Positions 10,064 to 23,740 of a stretch of DNA of 33,898 nt are shown here, piece by piece. This stretch comes from a virus. The first letter of the stretch is position 1; each line of letters starts with the position of its first letter. The position numbers and the translations under genes were made by a program. The stretch spans positions 1 to 33,898 of the IMG/VR virus record IMGVR_UViG_3300044699_000107; one strand, written 5' to 3'. Under the pieces are notes generated by a model that was not told the DNA's origin, made no database searches, and worked only from the letters and a program-made list of their open reading frames with translations.

Positions 10064-10702
10064 CTATCCGACCCTTGCGCCTTTGGAGCGGTTGCAGCGT
10101 GCGTGCGTGGCCTGAATGTTGGCGCGGGTATGGGTCCCGCCCTTCGATAGCGGAACAATGTGGTCGAAATCTATCCCGAACAAATCAAGAGGTTTCCGAC
10201 AAATTCCACAAAGCCCCTTAGAGTCCTTCAGGACTTGTTTGAAATCGATGTCTTCAACTCGTGTTTGTTGCTTGAGCGCTCGCCGCTTCGCGTTTCGAGC
10301 GAGAAACTTTTCCCGTTGGCCAGCGTGATAGGACTTGTCGTACCAGGCTTTCTGTTTCGCTCTCTCAACATCAGTGTGGGCCGCATAGAAGGCCCGCCGC
10401 TGCGCGGAGAATGCCGTGGCGTTTCTCGCCCACCATTTCTTCTTGTAAGCTTTCACCGCCGCCGGCTTCGAGGCGTGGAGGGCCTTCTGATACGCAATCT
10501 TCTCTTTGGCGTTGGCTTTGTAGGCCGCCCTCGCTTTCGCATGTAGCCTGTCTTTATTGGTTGCTCGAAAACTCTTGTTCCGCTGACTAATGTCTTCCTT
10601 GTGTTCAGCCGCGTACGCCCGCACCTGCGCCTTGATGGCCTCTCGATGGGCCACGTAATACGCTCTGTTGTACGCCGCCGTCTGTTCCTTCGTGTACGCC
10701 AT
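10064..10702 (-). CDS. HNH endonuclease between chaperone and tape measure
   Basis: This is an intact frame of 212 residues. Residues 1-150 are a Lys/Ala/Arg-rich helical region with repeated Tyr-x-Ala-x-[HN] units (YNRAYYVAHREAIKAQ, YAAEHKEDISQRNKS, FYAAHTDVERAKQKAWY), likely for DNA contact. The C-terminus is a complete HNH nuclease: LCGICRKPLDLFGIDFDHIV, PLSKGG, NIQATHARCNRSKG. It holds two CxxC pairs (CGIC and the terminal C), the catalytic DHIVPLSKGG and the final Asn. Base composition is visibly less GC-rich than the neighbours. Because it separates the tail chaperone from the tape measure, where phages normally have nothing, it looks like an invading homing-type endonuclease. Target site unknown. 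Confidence 0.85.
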   Translation of the reverse strand: MAYTKEQTAAYNRAYYVAHREAIKAQVRAYAAEHKEDISQRNKSFRATNKDRLHAKARAAYKANAKEKIAYQKALHASKPAAVKAYKKKWWARNATAFSAQRRAFYAAHTDVERAKQKAWYDKSYHAGQREKFLARNAKRRALKQQTRVEDIDFKQVLKDSKGLCGICRKPLDLFGIDFDHIVPLSKGGTHTRANIQATHARCNRSKGARVG

Positions 10703-11475: not shown

Positions 11476-11874
11476 TTAGGGCTTCCGGCCCCAGCTCCCA
11501 TTGGCGACGAAGTTGCCGCTCAGCGTGTTCGGGCCACTCACCGGCACGGCGATCGAGGCGTCGAGCCACGCGGGCCCGTACCAGTAGACGGTCGGCGCCG
11601 CGGACGACGGATACAGGTACAGCTTCACGCCGTCCGTCGAATCCGCCGCGGTGAACACCGCCAGGCCGGCGTCATCCAGGAACCCCGTCACGGTCCCTTT
11701 GATGTCCTTCAGCCCTTGGACGTAGGTTTTGTTCGCGTCGCCGAACGCCGTGACTTCGGCTTTGTCGGTCGAGAGATCGAGCGTCCACCCCGACAGCGAC
11801 GTGGTCGTCGTCGCGGCGCCGGAGCCGGTCGTGCTCATGTAGATGACCGCTGCTTTTCCGTGGTATCGAGCCAT
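11476..11874 (-). CDS. Major tail (tube) protein
   Basis: The 132-residue protein from the ATG at 11874 starts MARYHGKAAVIYMSTTGSG. It contains SGWTLDLSTDKAEVTAFGDA, NKTYVQGLKDIKGTVTGFLD and DDAGLAVFTAADSTDGVKLY, then APTVYWYGPAWLDASIAVPV and NTLSGNFVANGSWGRKP. The 'STDKAEVTAFGDANKTYVQGL.D..GTVTGFLDD' pattern is characteristic of phage tail tube proteins, which polymerise as stacked hexameric rings. A longer in-frame start at 11931 exists but begins with a poor MICKRACRDG extension and overlaps the upstream glycosyltransferase. The shorter start is preferred. No indels are needed. Confidence 0.85.
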   Translation of the reverse strand: MARYHGKAAVIYMSTTGSGAATTTTSLSGWTLDLSTDKAEVTAFGDANKTYVQGLKDIKGTVTGFLDDAGLAVFTAADSTDGVKLYLYPSSAAPTVYWYGPAWLDASIAVPVSGPNTLSGNFVANGSWGRKP

Positions 11875-11893: not shown

Positions 11894-13021
11894 TCAGGCC
11901 GCCCGTCGCGGCAGGCGCGTTTGCAAATCACCGATCATCGTGGCTGCCCTATTGCGCCACGACGACTCGGCCACACAGGCCGGTAACTGCGCGGCGATCC
12001 GCGCCCGCCCGTCCGGATCCGCGAGCCACGATCGGACCAAGGCCTGCGCCTCGTCCGGGGTCGTGAACGTCGGCACGAGATCCCCGAAGACTTCCGCGAC
12101 TTCCTGTCGATACGAACTCAGATGAAAGGCGCCACACGCGGCCAGTTCATACGCGCGCGGGTTGAGCGATTCGGCGTGCGCGATCGGCGGCGCCTGCGGG
12201 CCCCACCCCATCGACGTCCGATAGAGATTCAGCCCCACCTTCGCGCGGCGATACAGCGCCGCCGTCGTCGCGTTGTCCGTCTGGGCCCCGCGCACAAAGC
12301 GGCGCAGCGGATGCCGGGATCCGAGCGACTCCCAGGAGCCGTAGAGCCCGAGATCAATCCCGGTCCAGTCAATCGCTGAGAGCCACGCGACCCGTTCCTG
12401 AAACGCGGAGCCGACGAACACGACGTCATGCGCCGCGACGTCGCCGTCGCCCGGTTGGGGGCCGGATCGATGCCGCTCGGGATGCCACGCGTGCGGGAGA
12501 TAGCCGCCGTGGGGATTCACCGCGCGAAAGGCGTCGACGCTCGAGCGTTCGTTCGTCCAGTACCCGTCGACGAGCGCCGCCATCGCGAGCTCTTTCTCGA
12601 GGTCATAGGGCGACTCGGTGAACAGCATGAACACCGGCAGCGACGCGCGCGTCATGACCCGCACGACGTCGGGATGCAGAAACATCCCGCTCACGGCCAG
12701 CACGCCATCGATGCCGCCGCGAAAGACGTCGAGCCACAACGCCACCCAGAGGGCATCCCGGCCCGCCTGGAGGAAGACGTCGGCGACGTTGGGCTTGCCG
12801 ATCGCGGCGTCGCGCTTTTTCGCCTGGCGCCAGTTGTAATAGAGCCAGCTTTGCGAGCGCGCGATCCGGGTGTCGAGGGCGTAGTCCACGATCTCCACGC
12901 CGTGGTGCGTCAGGCCCTCGCGCAGGCCTGCGGCCACATCCGCTGTCGCCCAGGACGCGCCGGGGCCGATGAAGAACAGCTTCAATGAAACACCGTTGGT
13001 GTTACGCTTTGGCCATGCCAC
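11894..13021 (-). CDS. CgeB-type glycosyltransferase
   Basis: The frame is intact, about 363-375 residues. The N-terminal Rossmann core begins KLFFIGPGASW. It is followed by VADVFLQAGRDALWVALWLD and GVLAVSGMFLHPDVVRVMTR, then YLPHAWHPERH. The C-terminal lobe reads DVVFVGSAFQERVAWLSAID, AALYRRAKVGLNLYRTSMGW and LNPRAYELAACGAFHLSSYR, then VPTFTTPDEAQALVRSWLAD. The 'R..E..ACGAF.LSSYR' nucleotide-sugar site and the terminal loop identify the CgeB / glycosyltransferase group 1 family (GT-B fold). The start is uncertain: ATG at 13021 adds about 13 weak residues, and a TTG at 12985 gives a natural L-K-L-F-F-I-G start. It sits between a methyltransferase and the tail tube gene, so a virion component or host surface glycan is a plausible acceptor. 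Confidence 0.8.
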   Translation of the reverse strand: MAWPKRNTNGVSLKLFFIGPGASWATADVAAGLREGLTHHGVEIVDYALDTRIARSQSWLYYNWRQAKKRDAAIGKPNVADVFLQAGRDALWVALWLDVFRGGIDGVLAVSGMFLHPDVVRVMTRASLPVFMLFTESPYDLEKELAMAALVDGYWTNERSSVDAFRAVNPHGGYLPHAWHPERHRSGPQPGDGDVAAHDVVFVGSAFQERVAWLSAIDWTGIDLGLYGSWESLGSRHPLRRFVRGAQTDNATTAALYRRAKVGLNLYRTSMGWGPQAPPIAHAESLNPRAYELAACGAFHLSSYRQEVAEVFGDLVPTFTTPDEAQALVRSWLADPDGRARIAAQLPACVAESSWRNRAATMIGDLQTRLPRRAA

Positions 13022-13512
13022 GGTATGTGTGCCTGACGTGCGGCGTCGCGTTCACCAAGAACGGCGCCAGACTCAGGAAGTACTGCTCCCCGCGCTGCTA
13101 CCACGAGGCCACGGCGATTCCGCTGCGCGATCGGCTCTGGGCCAAGGTCGTCAAGACCGACACGTGCTGGCTGTTCACCGGCAAACACAACGAGCACGGC
13201 TACGGCCGACTGCCGATTTCTCAGGGCGGCGTGGGTAAGTGGATCTACGCGCATCGACTGGCCTGGATGGAGTTGGGGGGCGCAATTCCGCGAGGCAAGC
13301 ACCTGTGCCATCGGTGCGACACACCGAATTGCGTGCGGCCCGATCATCTGTACGTGGGCACGCCATCCGACAACATGAGAGACAAGATGGCTCGCGGACG
13401 TCTCCCTGTCGGCACGGGCCACTGGTATCACCGCAATCCGATCAAGGGTTTTAGACATCCGCAGACCGGCCGGTTCCAGAAGGTGTCCGAGCGGAGCACA
13501 AGTACCCGGTAG
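13015..13512 (+). CDS. HNH endonuclease on the opposite strand
   Basis: This 165-residue plus-strand protein (MPRYVCLTCGVAFTKNG) lies in a minus-strand operon. The N-terminus is a treble-clef zinc motif (CLTC, then KYCSPRC). The middle reads DTCWLFTGKHNEHGYGRLPI and WIYAHRLAWMELGGAIPRGK. The C-terminus (HLCHRCDTPNCVRPDHLYVG, then TPSDNMRDKMARGR) is the HNH_3-type nuclease with C-C-C-H metal ligands and the final Asn. It fills the gap between a methyltransferase stop (13451) and the glycosyltransferase start (13021) and overlaps both antisense. This is a classic picture of a homing endonuclease inserted between phage genes. An upstream ATG at 12985 is possible but less likely. Confidence 0.85.
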   Translation: MPRYVCLTCGVAFTKNGARLRKYCSPRCYHEATAIPLRDRLWAKVVKTDTCWLFTGKHNEHGYGRLPISQGGVGKWIYAHRLAWMELGGAIPRGKHLCHRCDTPNCVRPDHLYVGTPSDNMRDKMARGRLPVGTGHWYHRNPIKGFRHPQTGRFQKVSERSTSTR

Positions 13513-14107
13513 TCATTTCCGTTTGAGAGGCGAACCCCATCGCTTCGAACCGGCGCATCAGGTCGTACGCCGCGGCGCCTTCATCGGTCCATGTGCACGC
13601 GGTGATCGTCACGTCCGTGAAGTCCTTCAGGAGGAACTCCCACCCCTGACGCGCGAACCGCCAGTAGTCCTTGTAGTCCTCGGTCTGATGTGTCGGCCAG
13701 CAGAACGGCGACGTCACCAGCAGCAGGCCGCCCGGCTTCAGCACCCGGAACACCTCCGCTATCGCTGCCTTCGGATCGGTGCAGTGCTCGAGGACCTCGG
13801 TCAGCACGATCCCGTCGAACGAGTTGTCGGAGAACGGCAGCGCCAGCAGCGAGCCCACCTGGTCTTCGCCGTGTTCCCCGAACGTGACGTACCCCTCGCC
13901 GAGATACCGCCGCGGCACGTAGACCCCGACGTCGAGAATCGCCGGGCCCAGCGCCGCGCGATGCGACCACACCCAGTGCTCGAGCTGAAGACGATGGAAG
14001 TCGGGGGCCGGAAAGTCGTGCAGGCCCAGCGTCTGCTGCGACCACGCGAGCAGCTGCGCGGCCGGCACGGAGGCACTGAGCCCGTACAGCAACACGTCGC
14101 GGGTCAT
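13451..14107 (-). CDS. SAM-dependent methyltransferase (type 11)
   Basis: This intact 218-residue protein overlaps the preceding gene by an ATGA. The SAM-binding core is seen as ILDVGVYVPRRYLGEGY (motif I, with a Gly-poor loop), LALPFSDNSFDGIVLTEVLE, HCTDPKAAIAEVFRVLKPGG and LLLVTSPFCWPTHQTED. These match Methyltransf_11. The 'LTEVLEHC.DP..A..E..RVLKPGG' is diagnostic of the family. The N-terminal 35 residues and the C-terminal DVTITACTWTDEGAAAYDLM are likely substrate parts. It lies next to a CgeB glycosyltransferase, so sugar methylation is a reasonable inference. Target unknown. Confidence 0.8.
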   Translation of the reverse strand: MTRDVLLYGLSASVPAAQLLAWSQQTLGLHDFPAPDFHRLQLEHWVWSHRAALGPAILDVGVYVPRRYLGEGYVTFGEHGEDQVGSLLALPFSDNSFDGIVLTEVLEHCTDPKAAIAEVFRVLKPGGLLLVTSPFCWPTHQTEDYKDYWRFARQGWEFLLKDFTDVTITACTWTDEGAAAYDLMRRFEAMGFASQTEMTTGYLCSARTPSGTGRSADV

Positions 14108-14541
14108 GCGGGACTCGCAAATACGGTGTACAGGCCGCCGCGGTGTTGCCAGCGCGCGTCGGCGTTCTCGGGATCCGCTTCGGTGTAGCGCACGTATTCC
14201 TCGAGGCCGGTCTGCGCGGTCCCGTAGCCGGGGACCGTCAACGTGCTGCCGGCGCCGGTCGGGCCATCGAGCAGCACATCAATCCGCGCGGCCGCGGCTT
14301 TCGTATTGACGGTGCCGGTCCCCAGCTCCACGGCCTTGACCAGGTAGAGCGGGCTTTCGAACGCCCGGCCGCCGAACTGGCGCGTCACCGAATGGGCCAT
14401 GAGTTTCACAATCACAAACCGGGTCATCCCGGCGCTCGCGAGCTCGTAGAACACGCCGTCGGGCATCAGCGCCGCGAGCGTCGCGTCCGCCAGGAGCTTC
14501 GCAATCAACGCGCTGTCGATCTCGCCGCTATACGACGCCAT
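14104..14541 (-). CDS. Tail terminator / tail completion protein
   Basis: An intact 145-residue protein (MASYSGEIDSALIAKLLADA). It reads TLAALMPDGVFYELASAGMT, RFVIVKLMAHSVTRQFGGRA, FESPLYLVKAVELGTGTVNT and VRYTEADPENADARWQHRGG, ending LYTVFASPA. The pattern 'L..D..L.A.....Y.....G....FV.....', then 'YLVKAV', then a C-terminal 'W.HRGG.Y.V' is that of the DUF3168-like tail terminator family. It caps the tail tube and joins it to the head. It follows the HK97 gp10-like gene with a 14-base overlap, as expected in siphovirus gene order. No sequence anomalies. Confidence 0.75.
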   Translation of the reverse strand: MASYSGEIDSALIAKLLADATLAALMPDGVFYELASAGMTRFVIVKLMAHSVTRQFGGRAFESPLYLVKAVELGTGTVNTKAAAARIDVLLDGPTGAGSTLTVPGYGTAQTGLEEYVRYTEADPENADARWQHRGGLYTVFASPA

Positions 14542-14953
14542 GGACTTCGAACCCCGCGCGCTGCAGGAGCGCCCCGAGCTGCGCGTACATATGCTTTCGG
14601 TTCCGCATGGCGATCGGGATCAATCCCTCCGCGGCATGCGAGGGGGAGACCCCGCGGTTCCAGCCTTGACGGGTCGATCGCACGGCGGTCCCGAATTCCC
14701 AGATCGACGCGTGCTTCGCCGTGCTCTTCACGATCGCGACGGCGCCGTAGTCGGTGAACGCTTTGACGAGCCGGACGCCCGCGCGCAGCTTGCCCGTATC
14801 GCCGAGCGGATACGCCTGGATCAAACTGGCCTTCGTCAGCTCGGCCGCGTCCCCGACGATCTCGGCGCCCTCGGCTCGGAGTTGCTCGGGCAGCCGGCGC
14901 AGCGCCTCACGAAATTCGGCGAGCCCCTCGAGCACCAACCGGTTCTGACTCAC
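14528..14953 (-). CDS. HK97 gp10-like head-tail connector
   Basis: About 141 residues from a GTG at 14953 in a GTGA overlap. It reads VSQNRLVLEGLAEFREALRR, LPEQLRAEGAEIVGDAAELT, SLIQAYPLGDTGKLRAGVRL, VKSTAKHASIWEFGTAVRST and HAAEGLIPIAMRNRKHMYAQ. The YPLGDTGKLRAGV then ASIWEFGT arrangement is the signature of the HK97 gp10 family of head-to-tail connection proteins. A longer open frame extends upstream, but the GTG start gives the family's usual length and the operon's usual overlap. Confidence 0.85.
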   Translation of the reverse strand: MSQNRLVLEGLAEFREALRRLPEQLRAEGAEIVGDAAELTKASLIQAYPLGDTGKLRAGVRLVKAFTDYGAVAIVKSTAKHASIWEFGTAVRSTRQGWNRGVSPSHAAEGLIPIAMRNRKHMYAQLGALLQRAGFEVHGVV

Positions 14954-15291
14954 GGCACGACCTCCGTGCAGACGAGCACCATCTCGATATTGCGTTCCTC
15001 GCGGTTCGACACGCCCGTCACGCTGAACGTCCGAGTGCCAAACGTCACGCGCGTCTGGGTCGTCACCTGCGGGTGATACGGCCCGGTCAGAATGTGGGAG
15101 GCCGCCGCCAGCACCGTGTCCGCGGTCACCCGTTCGAGGTCCTTCGCTGTCGCCGGCACGATCGCGACCCAGCCCGACGCCGGCACCAGATCGGTCCACG
15201 TCTGCGCGAACCCGCCGTCGCCGTCGGGCACCGCGGGGCCGGGGTTCTGGAACGTGACGAGGTGGCGCCGCTGCCCGATCGGGATCGCCAT
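14950..15291 (-). CDS. Head-tail adaptor (head closure) protein
   Basis: This 113-residue protein starts at an ATG directly upstream of the gp10-like gene. It reads MAIPIGQRRHLVTFQNPGPA, DGDGGFAQTWTDLVPASGWV, ILTGPYHPQVTTQTRVTFGT and RTFSVTGVSNREERNIEMVL. 'G..RH.VTFQNPG....DGDGGF.QTW', 'G.Y.P.VT...RV.FG.R.F.V.GV.N.EERN.E....C' is the family signature of the phage head-tail adaptor (SPP1 gp16-like head closure). It forms the ring that stops DNA leakage after packaging. No indels. Confidence 0.88.
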   Translation of the reverse strand: MAIPIGQRRHLVTFQNPGPAVPDGDGGFAQTWTDLVPASGWVAIVPATAKDLERVTADTVLAAASHILTGPYHPQVTTQTRVTFGTRTFSVTGVSNREERNIEMVLVCTEVVP

Positions 15292-15292
15292 C

Positions 15293-15583
15293 TCAGGCCA
15301 GCGTCGGATCGCGCAGGAGGTCCACGTGCCGCTGCCACGCCCGATCGTCCGGGAGCGGGCCATCGCCGCGCTCCGTCATCAGCTGCGTCAGGAGCGTCAG
15401 CACCGCCGACTGCACGTCGGCCGGGACGGTCGCCGCCGTCCACGTTGGATCGGCCTGCGCCTTCAGGTAGCGGACGACGCGCGTACTCGCCTCATCGACC
15501 TTGCGCTGAATGTCGGCATCCGCGTCCGTCGTGGTTTCGCGCAGATGACCTTTTGCGACCTCCAGGGTCACTAAGGCGCTCAT
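15293..15583 (-). CDS. Head-tail connector (gp6-like adaptor)
   Basis: This 96-residue helical protein reads MSALVTLEVAKGHLRETTTD, ADADIQRKVDEASTRVVRYL and VQSAVLTLLTQLMTERGDGP. The 'LVTLEEAK.HLR...D.D..I......AS..V..YL' pattern is that of the phage gp6-like head-tail connector family (HK97 gp6 / SPP1 gp15). These form the ring under the portal. The gene stops just before the adaptor gene and overlaps the upstream collagen-like gene by an ATGA. Size and position are as expected. Confidence 0.82.
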   Translation of the reverse strand: MSALVTLEVAKGHLRETTTDADADIQRKVDEASTRVVRYLKAQADPTWTAATVPADVQSAVLTLLTQLMTERGDGPLPDDRAWQRHVDLLRDPTLA

Positions 15584-16398
15584 GGGCGTTTCCCGCCAAC
15601 CGAGACCACCGGCAGCGCGCCGGGCGCATCCAGGCCGTCTTTGCCGTCCCGCCCGCGCTTGACCATCAGGGTCCAGGCTTTCGAGCCGTCGCCCGGCTTC
15701 GTGGTCGTGGCTTCGTTGCAGTGCCAGCTCGAGCCGGCCCACGTCACGAGATGGCCGACCGCGTAGCTCTTCCCGTCCTGATACACGCCTTCAAACGACA
15801 ACCCGGCGGCGCCGTGGGTGCCGTCGAGGCCGTTTGTGCCCGCCGGTCCTGGGTCGCCTTTCGGCCCGGGTACGGAGGGGCGGACTTCCACGACGGCCAG
15901 TCGTTCACGCATCGTCCCGACGTCCTTCGTCAGATCGGCGATCGCGCCGAGAATCGGCGAGGTCTCCGCCGCCTTCATCTCGAGGCGGAGCTCGAGCGCA
16001 GCGAGCCGGGCGACCACGGGCCCGAGATCCACCGGCGGCGTCGCGTCAGGCAGCGGCCCCGGCTGCGCGGCCTTCGTCTCCACGCTGACCACACGGTCGC
16101 GCAGATCCCCGAGGGACTGTTCGTGCGCCGGTAACCGCTGCAGCTGGGCGTCGATCGCGGCGAGGCGCTCGCGCAGCGGCGTCAGATCGATCGGCGCCTC
16201 CACCGGAGCCGCCGGCTGCGCGGCTTTGGTCTCGCCCACCAGGACCCGATCCCGGAGCGCGTCGAGGGCCTGCTCCGCCGACCGGGTCCGCGCAAGCCCG
16301 GCTTCCGCCACGGCCAGGCGCTCGAGCACTGGTCCGAGTGCGGCTTTGATCAACAGCACGACTTCGCCGGCGAGCGCCTCGAGGAGCTCAGGCTGCAT
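15580..16398 (-). CDS. Collagen-like fibre protein with carbohydrate-binding-like module
   Basis: This intact protein of about 272 residues starts at the ATG at 16398, overlapping the portal stop by 11 bases (MQPELLEALAGEVVLLIKAA). Residues 1-180 form repeated coiled-coil heptads, with near-repeats RDRVLVGETKAAQPAAP and RDRVVSVETKAAQPGPL. A collagen-like Gly-x-y stretch (GPKGDPGPAGTNGLDG) follows. Then a compact module reads GVYQDGKSYAVGHLVTWAGS, SWHCNEATTTKPGDGSKAWT, followed by a second GRDGKDGLDAPG. 'YxVGDLVTxxGSxWxC...T...PG..S..W' resembles the CBM5/12-type carbohydrate-binding fold. The architecture of trimerising stalk plus sugar-binding tip fits a head-associated or portal-vertex fibre. 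Its placement next to the portal is notable. Confidence 0.75.
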   Translation of the reverse strand: MQPELLEALAGEVVLLIKAALGPVLERLAVAEAGLARTRSAEQALDALRDRVLVGETKAAQPAAPVEAPIDLTPLRERLAAIDAQLQRLPAHEQSLGDLRDRVVSVETKAAQPGPLPDATPPVDLGPVVARLAALELRLEMKAAETSPILGAIADLTKDVGTMRERLAVVEVRPSVPGPKGDPGPAGTNGLDGTHGAAGLSFEGVYQDGKSYAVGHLVTWAGSSWHCNEATTTKPGDGSKAWTLMVKRGRDGKDGLDAPGALPVVSVGGKRP

Positions 16399-17758
16399 GG
16401 GGGAGGTCCGCATGGACGGCCTTCTGGCGGAGCATCGCTTTGAAGCTGGCCGCCGCGTCTGCCGGCGCCACATCTGGACGCGCGGCGAGGCCTGCGGCCG
16501 CCGCGACGGCCGGCTTCGAGAAGGGCTGATCGGCATCGCGCTCGGCGAGGGCGGCCAGGCTGTACATCTGCTGCTGCATGTAGGGCGTGTTGCCGCCCTT
16601 CACCGGGCCTTTGTCGTGATACTTGAAGCGGACTTCGTCCGGCGACAGCCCCGACAGGATCGCGGCCGCGGCCGCCGTCGTGCGCGTCGCCGTGTCCATC
16701 CGGAACAAGTCGTCGAGATCGACCTCGGTGCCGTAGGGTTTCGGGAGCTCGAGGCCTTCATCGAGGCAAAGCTCGAGACATTCGATCAGGATCTGCAGCG
16801 CCTGCGCGTAGTACTGCTGCAAGAGCGGCTCGACGTTGGCGTAGGGCGGCGGCGGGCCGACCCCGATCATGTACGGCTGCACATGGAAGCAGCTGCAGAC
16901 CGTCTCCCCCGTCCACTTCAACTGTTCGATGAGCTGCGCGTCCGTCGCGTTGACGCTCATGGCTTCGTACTTGAGGCCGTCGCCGAGGACTGCGACTTTG
17001 CCGATGTTGTCGCCGCCGAAATTGGTCTCCCAGTACGCCTTGAGCCGATCGGCGGTCGCTTGCCCGATCGCGCCGGGCGCGGTCAGGACGCCGCCGGGCC
17101 GGCTGCCGTTGGTGAAGAAGGACGTCGAGTTCGTCTGAATCGCGAGGCCCTGCATCGCCGCCACGCCGCACGCGTAGATCGGCGACACCCCGATCAAGGG
17201 GTGATAGAGCGCGACCATCGTGTCGTGGATGATCTCGCGCGCCGGCACCGTGATGGTGTCCGTCGGCAGCCCGGAGAGGTCGTCGCGTTTGAGCTCGTAG
17301 TACACCGCGCCGTCGGGCGCCACGAGTGGCGTCACGCGCGTCGGGTCGAGGACGTACAGCGCCTTCACAATCCCGCGCGCGTCGCGCGCCTTCAGGATGT
17401 ACGTGTTGCCGTGAATCAGCTTGCTGACGATCCACTGCTCGATGAACTTGATCCGCGTCTGGTAGCGGTTCGGTTTGCGGAGGACGGGCGAGAACGAGGC
17501 CGACTCGGCGGGGGTCCAGATCCCGTGCACATCTTCGGCGACCAGGCGGAGACAGAGTTTCGCGATATCGGAGGCAATCAGCGTGACGCACGCGAAGATC
17601 GCGCTGAACGTCAGCACGGTGTCCATGTGGACCTCGGCGTTCCGTTGCCAGGCGCCCATGAACGGCTCCCGAATGACGGACCACCAGCCGCCCCGCCCGC
17701 TGAGGGCCTGGAGCTGGAGACCTTTGGTCCGCGCGATCGTGAAGGGCCCGATCTGCAC
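16388..17758 (-). CDS. Portal protein, HK97 family
   Basis: An intact 456-residue protein. It starts MQIGPFTIARTKGLQLQALS and contains NAEVHMDTVLTFSAIFACVT, KPNRYQTRIKFIEQWIVSKL, GNTYILKARDARGIVKALYV, GVSPIYACGVAAMQGLAIQT and TEVDLDDLFRMDTATRTTAA. The 'V.A.......A...P......HP......T...F.E', 'GN.Y....R...G.V..L..LDP..V' and 'G.SP...' motifs identify the HK97-type portal, the 12-subunit ring through which DNA is packaged. The length is typical (400-500). It follows a small conserved gene and precedes the fibre and connector genes. No sequence anomalies. Confidence 0.93.
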   Translation of the reverse strand: MQIGPFTIARTKGLQLQALSGRGGWWSVIREPFMGAWQRNAEVHMDTVLTFSAIFACVTLIASDIAKLCLRLVAEDVHGIWTPAESASFSPVLRKPNRYQTRIKFIEQWIVSKLIHGNTYILKARDARGIVKALYVLDPTRVTPLVAPDGAVYYELKRDDLSGLPTDTITVPAREIIHDTMVALYHPLIGVSPIYACGVAAMQGLAIQTNSTSFFTNGSRPGGVLTAPGAIGQATADRLKAYWETNFGGDNIGKVAVLGDGLKYEAMSVNATDAQLIEQLKWTGETVCSCFHVQPYMIGVGPPPPYANVEPLLQQYYAQALQILIECLELCLDEGLELPKPYGTEVDLDDLFRMDTATRTTAAAAAILSGLSPDEVRFKYHDKGPVKGGNTPYMQQQMYSLAALAERDADQPFSKPAVAAAAGLAARPDVAPADAAASFKAMLRQKAVHADLPHAA

Positions 17759-17760
17759 CG

Positions 17761-17982
17761 CTACTTCTTCGCCTTGCCGCGAAAGTCGGCCGTGGTGATC
17801 GGCGAGACAGGCTGCGAGGGTGTCCGCGGCGCGGGCGGTGGGGGATCGTGGTACGCCGCCATGCCCTGCGCGACGAGGTTGTCCACCTCGGTCGCCGCGA
17901 CCTCGTACACGTCGCCAGCCTCATGGGCCGCGCCGTGATGGGTGTGGAACTTCAGCGCCTTGACCGTGACCTTGTCAGACAT
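17761..17982 (-). CDS. Small unknown protein upstream of the portal
   Basis: This 73-residue protein (MSDKVTVKALKFHTHHGAAH) continues EAGDVYEVAATEVDNLVAQG and ends with a Pro-rich, basic tail (PPPPAPRTPSQPVSPITTAD, FRGKAKK). The first half 'KV..L..H.H.G..Y..GD.Y.V.......L...G.A' is a common small phage domain often found near the portal or capsid. Its role is unknown. It overlaps the methyltransferase stop by 8 bases and ends 3 bases before the portal start. Confidence 0.65.
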   Translation of the reverse strand: MSDKVTVKALKFHTHHGAAHEAGDVYEVAATEVDNLVAQGMAAYHDPPPPAPRTPSQPVSPITTADFRGKAKK

Positions 17983-18568
17983 GGGCCTCCTTGATGCCGT
18001 AGATCAACTGCACACCGTCTGAGTGCGGGGGCGTGGACTGATACCGCGTGCACGTCAGCCCGCCTGTCGCTGCGAAGGCGTCCCAGGCCCGCTGCACGCC
18101 GGGGAACGAGCGGTTCCCGTAATCGTCGCCGCAGATCAGGCCGCCGGGTTTCACATGCGGCACCCACGCCGCGAGGTCCGCGCGCACGGCCGCTTCGCTG
18201 TGGTCCGCGTCGATGTAGAGGTAATCAATCGGTTCGGTCCAGGTCTGCGCCGCCTGGAGCGTGGACGTCGGCATCAGCCGGACGTTCGTGACCCCCGCCG
18301 ACGCGAGGTTGCGCGCACAGGTGACGAGCAGCCAGGGCGAGGTCCGGCCCGCGTGGTAGATGTCGTCCGACCACGTATCGACACACGTCAGCACGCCGCG
18401 CCAGCGGGCAATCGATCGCGCGACCGGAATCGCCGAGGCCCCCAGGAACGTCCCGAGCTCCACGCACACGACGGGCCGGTGCTGCTCGAGCAGCGCCAGG
18501 AGCTGATCGCCGTGATGGAACCAGCCCGGCACCAGCGGCGCCGTCTCGAGCGCGGCCAGGGTGCTCAC
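17975..18568 (-). CDS. SAM-dependent methyltransferase (Methyltransf_24-like)
   Basis: An intact 197-residue protein. The core motifs are VVCVELGTFLGASAIPVARS (motif I with E-x-G-x-x-x-G-x-S), VLTCVDTWSDDIYHAGRTSP, YLYIDADHSEAAVRADLAAW (acidic motif with D-x-D-H) and VPHVKPGGLICGDDYGNRSF. These place it in the class I, Methyltransf_24 / cephalosporin hydroxylase-like group, often sugar O-methyltransferases in glycan clusters. The start at 18568 overlaps the preceding gene. It lies in the head gene block with a glycosyltransferase 120 bases upstream. A sugar or protein target is possible; the substrate is not visible. Confidence 0.85.
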   Translation of the reverse strand: MSTLAALETAPLVPGWFHHGDQLLALLEQHRPVVCVELGTFLGASAIPVARSIARWRGVLTCVDTWSDDIYHAGRTSPWLLVTCARNLASAGVTNVRLMPTSTLQAAQTWTEPIDYLYIDADHSEAAVRADLAAWVPHVKPGGLICGDDYGNRSFPGVQRAWDAFAATGGLTCTRYQSTPPHSDGVQLIYGIKEAHV

Positions 18569-18768
18569 CGATCCACCGTGGTATAGCCGCGCTTCAGGAG
18601 CTCCGCGATCAGCGCCGCTTGGGCGACCGGGTGAAACTTCGCGGTCCCACTGAACCCGCTCCCATCCGGCGGGCGCAGTTCGACGAGCTCATCCACCGGC
18701 GCCGGCTTCGCTTTGGGGGATGCCGTAGGCGTGCTGGCCAATGTGTTCAATCTCCTTCGAGAGGTCAT
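18565..18768 (-). CDS. Small unknown protein in the head gene block
   Basis: The C-terminal part reads VDELVELRPPDGSGFSGTAK, FHPVAQAALIAELLKRGYTT, then VDR. It looks like a small globular domain. Two starts are possible. ATG at 18768 gives 67 residues with a Ser/Thr/Pro-rich N-terminus overlapping the glycosyltransferase. GTG at 18696 gives 44 residues and the usual short overlap with the glycosyltransferase stop (18689). I favour the GTG because the extra segment is read in another frame by the upstream gene. It ends in an ATGA-type overlap with the methyltransferase. No family recognised. Confidence 0.55.
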   Translation of the reverse strand: MTSRRRLNTLASTPTASPKAKPAPVDELVELRPPDGSGFSGTAKFHPVAQAALIAELLKRGYTTVDR

Positions 18769-19305
18769 GGTCGATGTATATCGGGTAGCCGGCCGCCCGG
18801 AGCGCGCGACAGAACCCGACGTCTTCGCCGATGTCGCCGCCCTGCGCGTTGAGGCCGTGCCGGAACCAGGGCCGCGGCAGATCCGCCACGACGTCGGTGC
18901 GCATCAACAGCGCGCCCATGCCGCAATAGTCCACGGCTTCGAGGCCCGTCGACGTCGCGAGCGTCGGAATCCGCTGCTCGTCCCGAAACGCCGTGAACAA
19001 CCCCGACGCCTGCCGCACGACGTAGTTGCACGCCACGATTGGCTGGTCGTGCATCGCCAGCAAGACGGCGGTTTCCCGGGCACGCTCATGTCCGTATCGA
19101 GCCAGAGGAGATGCGTCGCGCCTTGCTTCAGCGCCGATTCCAGAAACCACTCGCGGCCCACGTGGATATACGTGGCCGCGACGAAGTTGAGGGAGACGTC
19201 TTTGCCCACGGGCCCAACTCGCGGTGTACGCGAACAGGTGCGCGGCATCGACGGCGAAGGTGGCCGGCACGGCATCCCGTGTCGGCCCCCAATCGCTAAC
19301 CGCAT
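18689..19305 (-). CDS. Glycosyltransferase, GT-A type with DTD motif (frameshifted)
   Basis: The start is at 19305 (MRLAIG). After an indel in a G run near 19290 the protein reads PTRDAVPATFAVDAAHLFAY. It continues VSLNFVAATYIHVGREWFLE, ALKQGATHLLWLDTDMSVP, ETAVLLAMHDQPIVACNYVV, ATSTGLEAVDYCGMGALLMR and GGDIGEDVGFCRALRAAGYP, then IYIDHDLSKEIEHIGQ. The LLWLDTD metal/nucleotide-sugar motif, the VACNYV segment and the GEDVGFC acceptor motif identify a family 2-like GT-A glycosyltransferase of about 205 residues. Three indels (near 19290, 19210 and 19080) are needed. It lies immediately after the major capsid gene, which suggests glycosylation of a capsid component, as reported for some actinobacterial phages. 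The acceptor is unknown. Confidence 0.75.
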
Positions 19306-19308
19306 CGT

Positions 19309-21222
19309 CTACGTGCCGACGTACGCCGCCGCTGTGATGTACCGGACGGCTGCGGTCCGCGCGCGAATCCAGGTGATCATCCGCTCGGCGCGGAGGCCCA
19401 CCAGGTTGCGCTGCCACAGCGACAGGTACACCGTCGTCGCGTCCACCGTGTCGGTCGGCGCCGAGTCCATCTGGACCGACGCTTCCCGGCTGACATCGAT
19501 CCGGACCCCGCCTTCATCCGCGAAGAGAATCGACGGCGCATGGACGAGGATCACGCGGGTGCTGACGTTGTTGCTGACGATGACCGGCATCCCGAAGAGC
19601 GTCCCGCCCTGGGCGGTGATGCCCGGGAAGAGTGGCTGTCCGAGCGCGTTCAGCGACACGGAGAGTCCGAACGCGTTCGAATCGGACATCAGCCACACGC
19701 TGCCATCGAGCGGGATGTTCGCCGCCGTGAAGACCGCGATCGACGTCGCCAGATCCAGCTTGGCCGCCGCCGCCGTCACGCCCGAGGCCGCCGCGGTGGA
19801 GGCGCCGTTGGTGATCGACGCGGGCGACACGTTGGCCGCCACGGCCACCGCCGGATCGTTGAACTGGACATCGAGGAACGCGCCCATGCCGGCGATCATT
19901 TCCTCGCGCACGAGGGCTTCCGCCGACGGGGTCGAGAGGGTCACGAGCTCTTCCGAGAGCACGATGATCCCGGCCGCTTTCGCGAACGGGACGGTCACCG
20001 TCGCGTAGTCAGCCTTCGTCACCGGCTTGGGCTTGTTCTGGCCCACCCACCCGTAGGTGCCGCCGGTCGTCTGGCTCGGCACGGAGACGTTGAACGGCAC
20101 CTGCCGGAGTCCGGGAATCCGCCCGAGGAGCGTCCGCGGCCGGAGCAGTTCCAGGAAACTCGTTCAGCGGTGGCGTCACGACGAGCGGGCCCGCCCAGGT
20201 CGCATCCGTGGTCGTGCCGGCGGCGACCGCCGCCTTCGTCCGCCACATGTGCTCGACCATCTGCTCGACTTCCGGCGTCGAGTCCTTCCACAGCTTGGTG
20301 TGCTGAAGGTTTTGTACGAGTCGCCGCCGCCGGCCGCCAGCGCCATGCACATGCGGGCGAACGCCGTCCCCTTCGGGACATTCGCTTTCACCGTGATGAT
20401 TGGCGTGGTGGACGTGCCGCCCCGGAGCTCGGCGGCCGCGACACTGCCGGTCGTCGGCGTGATGCGCGTGGCCACCGCGAGGTTCATCTTTTCCATGTCG
20501 CGCAAGTCAGTCAGTTCGGCGTCACAGGCTTTCACTTCGAGGCTGAGCGTGTCGTATTTCTCGCGCTCCGCATCATCTTTTGAGCGCCCTTCCCCAACCA
20601 CCTTCGTTTGAATCTCCTGCATGGCGGCATAGGACGCGGCGCGTTTGTTTTCAAAGGCGACAATTTGTTCTTGGATGGTCATCGGGGGCGCCGCTTTCTG
20701 GAGGCGCACGATCGGCAAGGAGCCCGTAACGCCGGGCGGATGAAGGCCGGACGCGGCCAGATCGAGTTCTTTGATGGTGTGGATCGTGGCGCTCGCATTC
20801 GCGGGCACCGTCACGAGCGAGAGTTCCACGACTTCCGTTTGCAGGAAGTGCATCCCGCCGCTTTCCATGTAGGCGTGTTCAATCGACCGGAAGCCGATCG
20901 AGACCCCGGAGACAAGGCCGGCTTTGACGCTCTGCCACGCTTCGTCGACGCGGTCCTTCAGCGTGCCGGGTTCGTCGATCGTCGGGATCGTCGCTTCGAA
21001 TGCGATGCCCTCTTTCGTGGGCTTGTTGAATTTGGTGAAGCCGACGGGTTTCTTGCTGTCGTGATACAGCAGGAGCGGGAGCGGATTTTTAAAGGAGACT
21101 CCGAGCGGTTCGATAATATCTCCAGCCCGATCAGGCTCTGGCGTGGTCGCAATGCCAGAGATGACACGCTTGTCAGCGTCAACGGCTTTGACGTGGAGGA
21201 CGGCATAGGCGCGGTTCACCAT
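19309..21222 (-). CDS. Prohead protease fused to HK97-type major capsid protein
   Basis: Residues 1-170 are an S78-type prohead protease. They read VISGIATTPEPDRAGDIIEP, LPLLLYHDSKKPVGFTKFNK (catalytic His), LVSGVSIGFRSIEHAYMESG (catalytic Ser) and VVELSLVTVPANASATIH. A helical scaffold-like region follows (MTIQEQIVAFENKRAASYAA). The capsid domain is PLVVTPPLNEFLELLRPRTL, GGTYGWVGQNKPKPVTKADY and AEALVREEMIAGMGAFLDVQ, with LVGLRAERMITWIRARTAAV near the end. Two single-base indels, in an A run near 20312 and a T run near 20161, break the frame. Otherwise protease, delta domain and capsid form one gene of about 637 residues. Fusions of this kind occur in some siphoviruses. The protease is expected to cut itself and the delta domain away during maturation. 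Confidence 0.85.
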
Positions 21223-21436: not shown

Positions 21437-21619
21437 CCGCAACAGTCGCCGCACCAACGCCGACACCGACGTCTCCTCTTCATTGGCTAACCGGATCAGC
21501 TTGTCGTGTTCACCGGCCGGTAACCAGGTACTGACCGAGGAGGACGGCTCGACGTTCCGGGGCCGACCCTGGTGGACGGGTTCCTCGAGCGCTGGCCCGA
21601 TCGGGAGCACGCGCTTCAT
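21422..21619 (-). CDS. Ribbon-helix-helix (CopG/Arc-type) DNA-binding protein
   Basis: A 65-residue protein starting in an ATGA overlap with the large terminase stop (MKRVLPIGPALEEPVHQGRP). The C-terminal 40 residues (SSSVSTWLPAGEHDKLIRLA, NEEETSVSALVRRLLRLRLR) follow the ribbon-helix-helix pattern. A beta strand SVSTWLP is followed by helix GEHDKLIRLANEE and helix VSALVRRLLRLRL. Such proteins bind DNA as dimers. In this location it may regulate late transcription or assist packaging, which is inference. No indels. Confidence 0.75.
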   Translation of the reverse strand: MKRVLPIGPALEEPVHQGRPRNVEPSSSVSTWLPAGEHDKLIRLANEEETSVSALVRRLLRLRLR

Positions 21620-23186
21620 GCCGGGGCGGCGCCCCCGACCACCAGGAGTTGAAAGGCCGGCGGCGTGTCCCCGCCGTTCCGGTGCATCCGATCCGTCGCG
21701 TTGACGAGCGCGGAGGCCCCGTCGATGCGTTCGGTCGAGACGGCCTTCGACAGCTTGATATTGCCCGTCGCATCCTGCTCCGCCGCGGCGTTCCCGATGC
21801 ACCAGCGCAGGATCGGGTGCCCGTCGTGCCGGAGGGCCTTCGACAAGATCGCCGCTTCGAGCCCCTTGGTCGGCGCCGAGAGGGACCGGAAGCCCTGTCG
21901 AATCGGGACACAGGTGAAGCCGTCCTGCTCCTGGAGCCGCGTCACGAGGTCGGTCGCGTTCCAGGGATCGAAGGCGATCTCGCGCACCGTAAATTCCAGG
22001 GCCCACTCGTTGAGGTGGCGGCGCACGACTTCGTACTCGACCCGGTTGCCTGGCGTGGCGATCAGGAAGCCGTCGCGCACCCACTGGTCGTAGGGCACAC
22101 GGTCGCGCGTGACGCGTTCGAGGATGTTCTCCTTCGGGACGAAGAACGCGGCCAGCACGTCGAACCCGGGGCCTTCGTCGTCGGGAAACGTCGCGACCGC
22201 GGCGGTCAGGTCCTTCGTCGAGCTCAAGTCGAGCCCGACGTAGCAGCGCCGGCCCTTCAACCGCACGCGATACTCGGTCCGCGTCATGCGGCCACCGCGC
22301 AGCAGGCGTCCCAGGCGGCCAGACTCACCCACCGCTCGGCGCTTTCCGTCCACTGGTTGCAGTACAGCCGGCGAAACACCATCTCTTGCGCCGGGATCTC
22401 CTGGGCGCGCTTGCATAGAATCCGCATGTCCTCGAGGCTGCGGAAGTCCCCGAGCGCCGGGTTGCAGCGATGCCACTCGCGTTCGTCGGTCCAGTCGGCG
22501 TCGGCGGGCATCTCGTAGAGGATCGGGAGGAACGTCGGATCGAGGGACGGGTTCTCTTTGACCTTCTTCGCGTGGCTGTAGAGTTCCCAGAGGATCGAAT
22601 GCTTGTCGTAGCCGGCCGTCGAGATCGCGATCAGCAGCGGCTGCGCGCGCGCCCCCATGGACGTCGTGAGCACGTCGTAGAGATCGCGACTCGGCGCCGC
22701 GTGCATTTCGTCGTAGATGATCCGGGACGCGTTGAACCCGTGCTTGTTGTAGGCCTCCGCCGAGATCGCGCGATAGACCGTCCCGCTCGCGCGGTGGACC
22801 ATGCGCAGCTGCGAGTGGATGATGTCGATCGCGTCCAGCAGTTCCGGATCGGCGCGGACCATCTGCTCCGCCACGTTGAACACGATGGCCGCTTGATCGA
22901 GGTCCGCGGCGCACGAGTACACTTCCCCGCCGATCTCCCCATCGAATGCCAGGCCGTCGATCGCGAAGCCGGCCGCGAGCTCGCTCTTGCCGTTCTTCCG
23001 GGGCATCATCAGCAGACACGTTCGGTATTGGCGGAGCCCGTCCGGGTTCGTGTGAAAGAGCGGGCGCACGATGTCCCGTTCCTGCCAGCGACGCAGATGG
23101 AACGGCTGCCCGCCGAACGGCCCTTTCGTGTGCGTTAAGTTATTGATGACCGCGACCTTGCGATCGGATCCGGGGTTGCGGCTCAT
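21616..23186 (-). CDS. Terminase large subunit
   Basis: The ATP-driven DNA packaging motor. From the ATG at 23186 (MSRNPGSDRKVAVINNLTHT) the ATPase domain shows a P-loop-like CLLMMPRKNGKSELAAG, then YSCAADLDQAAIVFNVAEQM, Walker B RIIYDEMHAAP and coupling motif ISTAGYDKHS. The nuclease domain has YVGLDLSSTKDLTAAVATFP with a catalytic Asp, then FTVREIAFDPWNATDLVTRL, and GNIKLSKAVSTERIDGASAL near the end. The two halves are in different frames and join at an ATGA at about 22285. The first ends WDACCAVAA, the second begins MTRTEYRV. One lost or added base restores the usual single protein of about 520 residues. A natural two-gene split is possible but less likely. Confidence 0.92.
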
Positions 23187-23740
23187 TTCAGGAGGCCCGC
23201 CCACTTGGAGAGACCTGCGCGCCCGGTTTCTCCTCCACGAGGGGCTTCCCGAAGGGCTGCAGGCAGAAGTCCTTCTTCCAGGTCGCGACGCGGTGCATCA
23301 GGCCCCGGTGGTTGGGCCCCCCTGCCGTCGAGGGTGAGGCGCTCAGCGTCCGCTCGAGCACCACGGCCCGACACAGCATTGCGAACGCGGCGGCCGTGGC
23401 CGGCGTCAACGTCCGCACGGCCACCGCATGCGGCGCGAGCTCGTGCCAGATCGCCAGCGCGGCGACCCGGGCCTGCCCCTCGTCGACGCGCGCCTGCACC
23501 TCGGCGATCTGCGGGTTGGGATTGCTGGGATCAGCGCCCTGTTGCAGAAACGCGAGCTCCGCCCGGAGGGTGTCGAGTTCGCCCACCGGTCCCTGGAGCT
23601 CGGCCGGGGCGGGCGACCCCGTCCGTCGGCAGGATCGCGGCCGGCCTCGCGCTCGGATGCCGGACGACGACGGCCCGTGGCCCGTTGCCCTTCTTCCGCC
23701 CTGATCCGACGCGCCGTCCGCCGCTGCCTTTCCCGCCCAT
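23183..23740 (-). CDS. Terminase small subunit
   Basis: The ATG at 23740 is preceded by a GAGGTGG ribosome-binding site and begins MGGKGSGGRRVGSGRKKGNG, the basic N-terminus typical of small terminases. After an indel near 23600 it continues GELDTLRAELAFLQQGADPS, NPQIAEVQARVDEGQARVAA, WHELAPHAVAVRTLTPATAA and AFAMLCRAVVLERTLSAS, then WKKDFCLQPFGKPLVEEKPG. An indel near 23220 restores an end SKWAGLLK with the stop overlapping the large terminase ATG. The helical body and the L-TPATAAAFAMLCR segment match the P27-type small subunit, which recognises phage DNA and loads the large subunit. Confidence 0.8.

Follow-up and report, generated by a model that had tools for sequence, protein, structure and literature searches.

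Two reports (PMC12363180 and PMC12619734) describe that mycobacteriophages glycosylate their capsid and tail tube with enzymes of their own, and that glycosyltransferases (GTs) encoded by phages such as Corndog, Che8 and Myrna act on these structures. In this literature virion glycans are demonstrated for a small number of mycobacteriophages. In the Corndog cluster, an O-methyltransferase gene and three glycosyltransferase-type genes are located between the portal and the protease genes, and the authors of that study proposed that the capsid is modified with methyl and glycan groups (PMC4351075). The general idea of phage-directed virion glycosylation is therefore already known, both from the capsid and tube of mycobacteriophages and from the gene content of the Corndog cluster. 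An earlier note on the DNA analysed here had considered a two-step glycan with methyl capping within a head-tail operon to be unusual; the Corndog cluster is a precedent for methyl and glycan enzymes in the head operon. New, as far as we have searched, are the enzymes, the lineage of phages that carries them, the presence of a separate cassette for the tail, and the rule of linkage reported below.

The window, i.e. the whole stretch of DNA analysed, is the 33.9 kb IMG/VR record IMGVR_UViG_3300044699_000107. The order of genes on the minus strand, in the direction of transcription, is terminase (ATPase and nuclease), protease-capsid, GT-A, MT24, DUF7210 protein, portal, fibre-like protein, connectors, MT11, CgeB and tail tube, with the following features:

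19309..21222, minus strand: fusion of prohead protease and major capsid protein (PF04586/PF05065, phrog_617)
19309-20100, minus strand: capsid part of this fusion (PF05065)
18689..19305, minus strand: GT-A glycosyltransferase (tblastn and full-length alignment A3 to intact relatives)
17975..18568, minus strand: SAM-dependent O-methyltransferase of Methyltransf_24/TylF type, MT24 (PF13578, E 7e-19)
17761..17982, minus strand: small DUF7210 protein adjoining MT24 (PF23843, phrog_3357)
16388..17758, minus strand: portal protein (PF04860, E 4.7e-75)
13451..14107, minus strand: SAM-dependent methyltransferase of Methyltransf_11 type, MT11 (PF08241, E 1.7e-14)
11894..13021, minus strand: CgeB-type GT-B glycosyltransferase (PF13524, E 2e-19)
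11476..11874, minus strand: major tail (tube) protein (phrog_10528, E 2.4e-9)

All four enzymes are encoded between the genes for capsid and tail tube, share their strand with the other head and tail genes, and form two pairs of a glycosyltransferase and a methyltransferase (18.0-19.3 kb and 11.9-14.1 kb), as the earlier note had described. The portal, fibre-like and connector genes separate the head pair from the tail pair, and the open reading frame at 12982-13458, between CgeB and MT11, matched no family. The protease-capsid gene encodes a single polyprotein in relatives, and the window version aligns over its full length with a 638-aa ORF of the relative L044. The large terminase subunit (21616-23204) is encoded by two ORFs, an ATPase and a nuclease, which overlap at ATGA; the two overlap at GTGA in L002, are separated by a spacer of about 160 bp in L044 and are fused in L082 and L084. 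A gene for an HNH endonuclease (10064-10702) is present within the tail region.

The earlier assignment of a GT-A enzyme with a DTD motif stands in so far as the region aligns with intact relatives, but the gene is not one open frame in the window. It is split over two frames: one carries the DTD motif, the other most of the rest of the gene. In relatives the enzyme is intact, about 205 aa in length, and is characterised by the DTD motif, an ED and a terminal His. Compensating frameshifts are present in both the GT-A and the capsid genes of the window (18689-20300) and are absent from relatives. Because the frame of the capsid gene is similarly disturbed and the relatives are intact, these frameshifts are probably indel errors of the record.

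For sequence comparisons the Corndog cluster (cluster O) was represented by Firecracker and Catdawg. Common to the mycobacteriophages and our locus is a phage-encoded glycosyltransferase in or near the virion operon. The gp33 methyltransferase of Firecracker has TylF and Methyltransf_24 matches in Pfam, as does MT24 of the window. However, the glycosyltransferases are different enzymes, without detected homology to those of the Corndog cluster: comparison by hhalign of the GT-A alignment (A3) with Firecracker gp36 and gp35, and of the CgeB alignment (A2) with gp34, gave no similarity at the sequence level, where the profiles are shallow. Unlike the Corndog cluster, the window group has two separate cassettes, each located beside the presumed target gene. 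By capsid and portal, the named phages closest to the window are also of another kind, being mostly proteobacterial (Rhizobium, Escherichia, Pseudomonas, Moraxella) and not actinobacterial like the glycosylated phages mentioned in the earlier note. Host assignment through genome contigs gave a single close match, a short MAG contig (L180), which was left unused.

We consider it likely that the locus carries two independent virion-glycosylation cassettes, GT-A with MT24 for the capsid and CgeB with MT11 for the tube. This reading is drawn from the co-inheritance of enzymes and structural proteins, from the optional presence of the methyltransferases, from the swapping of sugar-tailoring enzymes and from nearest structures that belong to protein- or sugar-modifying enzymes. 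Viral contigs were scanned with portal, MT24, CgeB, MT11, capsid and tube, giving some 300 loci, of which those sampled by portal are blind to enzyme content. In these relatives GT-A, with or without MT24, sits between capsid and portal, and CgeB, with or without MT11, immediately before the tube; the random placement that would have counted against the earlier note is not seen. Some loci have GT-A only (L005, L002, L003) and others CgeB and MT11 only (L013, L112), and the head and tail cassettes occur independently of each other. A search of the phage collection for relatives of CgeB or the tube returned none. The co-occurrence of the four genes, which the earlier note had proposed as a check, resolves into GT-A following the capsid type and CgeB following the tube, with both methyltransferases optional.

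Among portal-sampled loci, GT-A is present in all 11 with the window capsid type and in none of the 50 others (Fisher 2e-12, kinship ignored). Capsid sampling gave GT-A in 44/45 loci with the window type and in 0/5 with more distant capsids, counts that ignore phylogeny; the lone exception, L241, has the capsid type without GT-A. Portal identity overlaps between loci with and without the GT-A capsid type (62-75% versus 58-74%, medians 71 and 64%). The Mantel correlation of GT-A with the capsid (r = 0.41) is accompanied by values of 0.37 with the protease half and 0.16 with the portal, and the head linkage from correlation alone is moderate. The case is strengthened by GT-As that follow dissimilar capsids and by the different GT-A that fills the same slot in L243: in MW202496, MW202711 and Microcystis phage Mel-JY34, the capsids of which have no BLAST similarity where tested, a distant GT-A is encoded one or two positions past the capsid gene. 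MT24 accompanies GT-A in 34 of 45 loci. Three loci lacking GT-A (L251:1755-2105, L256:2084-2446, L241:4745-5071) encode small, mutually similar proteins directly 3' of the capsid gene, possibly decoration proteins.

In the tail, all 60 loci sampled by tube (60/60) have CgeB immediately upstream of the tube gene. In sixteen of these 60 (non-redundant), no portal, head-completion or connector gene of the window type can be recognised, some of the contigs being short. The Mantel correlation of CgeB with the tube (r = 0.67) is roughly double that of the tube with its other neighbour, p148 (0.32), or of CgeB with p148 (0.31), and its partial value controlling for p148 is 0.64. MT11 is present in 26 of 91 CgeB loci. 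Linked tubes are marked by four clade-specific tyrosines, which shared ancestry could explain, and have a Ser/Thr fraction of 0.198 against 0.166, for which ancestry could likewise account; in GT-linked capsids the fraction is not enriched (0.167 versus 0.162). A gain of Ser/Thr, weak in the tube and absent in the capsid, was therefore dismissed as acceptor evidence. Tentatively, and with less than even expectation, we suggest that CgeB and tube form a self-contained two-gene module that is swapped across unrelated backbones, the enzyme recognising its own type of tube, while changeable neighbours give each phage a different tube glycan; an unrelated GT-A module would serve the capsid likewise. 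The four tyrosines suggest that tyrosine could be the acceptor.

The strength of this linkage also bears on whether the enzymes are passenger genes (morons) which alter the surface of the host cell, for instance against superinfection, in a slot that merely tolerates insertions. Other carbohydrate genes do occupy the slot between capsid and portal: a SIS domain in L013, two putative glycoside hydrolase-like genes (GH114 and Spherulin4) in L050 (L050:661-2753) and an SGNH hydrolase in Rhizobium phage RHph_X2_26. However, CgeB and tube remain linked on different backbones, more strongly than the tube is linked to its other neighbour, and the genes are tightly spaced on the same strand as the structural genes. 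Gtr-type serotype conversion employs a membrane GT and a GtrA flippase; no GtrA-type flippase is found among the Pfam matches of the window or of the relative cassette proteins examined, and the models of both glycosyltransferases are compact folds. We regard passenger genes as an unlikely explanation.

Methyltransferases are found only beside a glycosyltransferase, the exception being a weak MT24 match in L069 (28% identity). They are optional, which makes methyl capping one form of a tailoring step that varies between phages. Fusions in the tail cassette combine GT2 with MT24 (L146), GT2 with CgeB (L133, L147) and a methyltransferase with CgeB (L150), and the same slot holds a TylF enzyme in L135 and a cytidylyltransferase with a methyltransferase in L166. 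Further genes beside CgeB and tube encode a hexapeptide acyltransferase and two GT2s (L310), a DegT-type aminotransferase (L284), or a GT4, a nucleotide-sugar epimerase and further GTs (L319). Radical SAM proteins excepted, the enzymes of the slot are those expected if a glycan is first assembled and then variously finished. Radical SAM-SPASM proteins are encoded upstream of CgeB and tube in L138 (1382-2497), L148 (3881-4963) and L149 (1344-2426).

The window GT-A ORF has no Pfam match, and the intact GT-A of L044 misses the Anp1/GT62 cut-off (18.0 bits, 28.8 required). The AlphaFold model of the latter (pLDDT 87.6) has a predicted GT-A fold, with LH3 (Z 18.4), STIV A197 (18.3), Mimivirus R699 (16.7), Mnn9 (16.5) and ColGalT1 (16.3) as best matches; the closest solved chain by sequence is Mnn9 (3zf8, E 4.7e-4). 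A197 (2c0n), a protein of known structure from an archaeal virus, is the closest small-chain fold (rmsd 3.1, 168 residues aligned), though its identity to GT-A is only 19%. CgeB passes the curated cut-off of PF13524 (70.4 bits against 25). The model of its counterpart in L082 (pLDDT 93.1) has a GT-B fold with GT4 matches near MshA and BshA, and the methylmannose polysaccharide mannosyltransferase 7qsg stands at rank 23 of the fold matches. The best solved relatives of the methyltransferases (alignments A4 for MT24 and A5 for MT11) are the methyltransferase 6g7d for MT24 (E 1.7e-10) and the D-glucose O-methyltransferase 6uv6 for MT11 (E 1.2e-7). The identity of 6g7d, 7qsg and 3zf8 to the window enzymes is low, and homology does not carry the substrate over.

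The solved relatives and folds are those of protein- or sugar-modifying enzymes and none indicates a DNA substrate, so that the likeness to nucleotide- or DNA-modifying families which the earlier note had named as contrary evidence is not found. It has been reported that DNA-modifying phage glycosyltransferases exist (reference cited in PMC12619734), and MT24 matches a PHROG named DNA methyltransferase. However, this match spans only part of the 599-position profile, and by Pfam and solved relatives the methyltransferases are O-methyltransferases. The thymidylate-synthase family (PF00303) is absent from 15 records, which may be fragments, with a positive control; in the search for TET/JBP (PF12851) the control itself was unmatched. 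Synthesis or decoration of modified bases in phage DNA would also not predict linkage to capsid and tube, and we consider it very improbable.

Under the two-cassette reading, the major capsid protein would receive from GT-A a sugar that the TylF/MT24-type enzyme may then O-methylate. In the tail, the CgeB-type GT-B enzyme would either place a sugar on the tube protein or extend one there, and O-methylation of this sugar by the MT11-type enzyme may follow. Each glycosyltransferase would be matched to the structural protein encoded beside it, the pair travelling between phage backbones, and the methyl step would be an exchangeable finish for which relatives substitute other sugar-tailoring enzymes. 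The benefit could be surface shielding, stability or altered adhesion. Gene content and order, the fold classes of the glycosyltransferases, co-inheritance and the swaps of tailoring enzymes are observed; from these we infer a protein acceptor and its identity, the sugar, the methyl on it and the benefit. The cassettes probably build methylated sugars on capsid and tube. Of the methylated glycans proposed earlier for capsid, tail or fibres, co-inheritance points to those on capsid and tube, whereas fibres gain no support and the methyl step is optional. Against the two-cassette reading, neighbouring genes may be co-inherited by hitchhiking, and the capsid of L241 without a GT, the frameshifted GT-A of the window and the lack of Ser/Thr enrichment in the capsid also speak against it.

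The locus probably represents a second, convergent form of virion glycosylation, belonging to a lineage of phages that are uncultured and come mostly from soil. Its arrangement allows a target protein to be predicted for each enzyme, and it suggests that phages exchange the finishing steps of the glycan no less freely than their other traits. The testable rule it offers is that a glycosyltransferase moves in company with its structural protein.

It is improbable, in our estimate, that the acceptor is another virion protein instead of capsid and tube, the candidate being the protein at 15580-16536. It lies between both pairs and combines a coiled-coil-like part, a collagen-like repeat and a CBM5/12-like C-terminus; however, it is also found in loci without both glycosyltransferases. 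The end of this protein matches PHROGs named portal protein and tail fibre.
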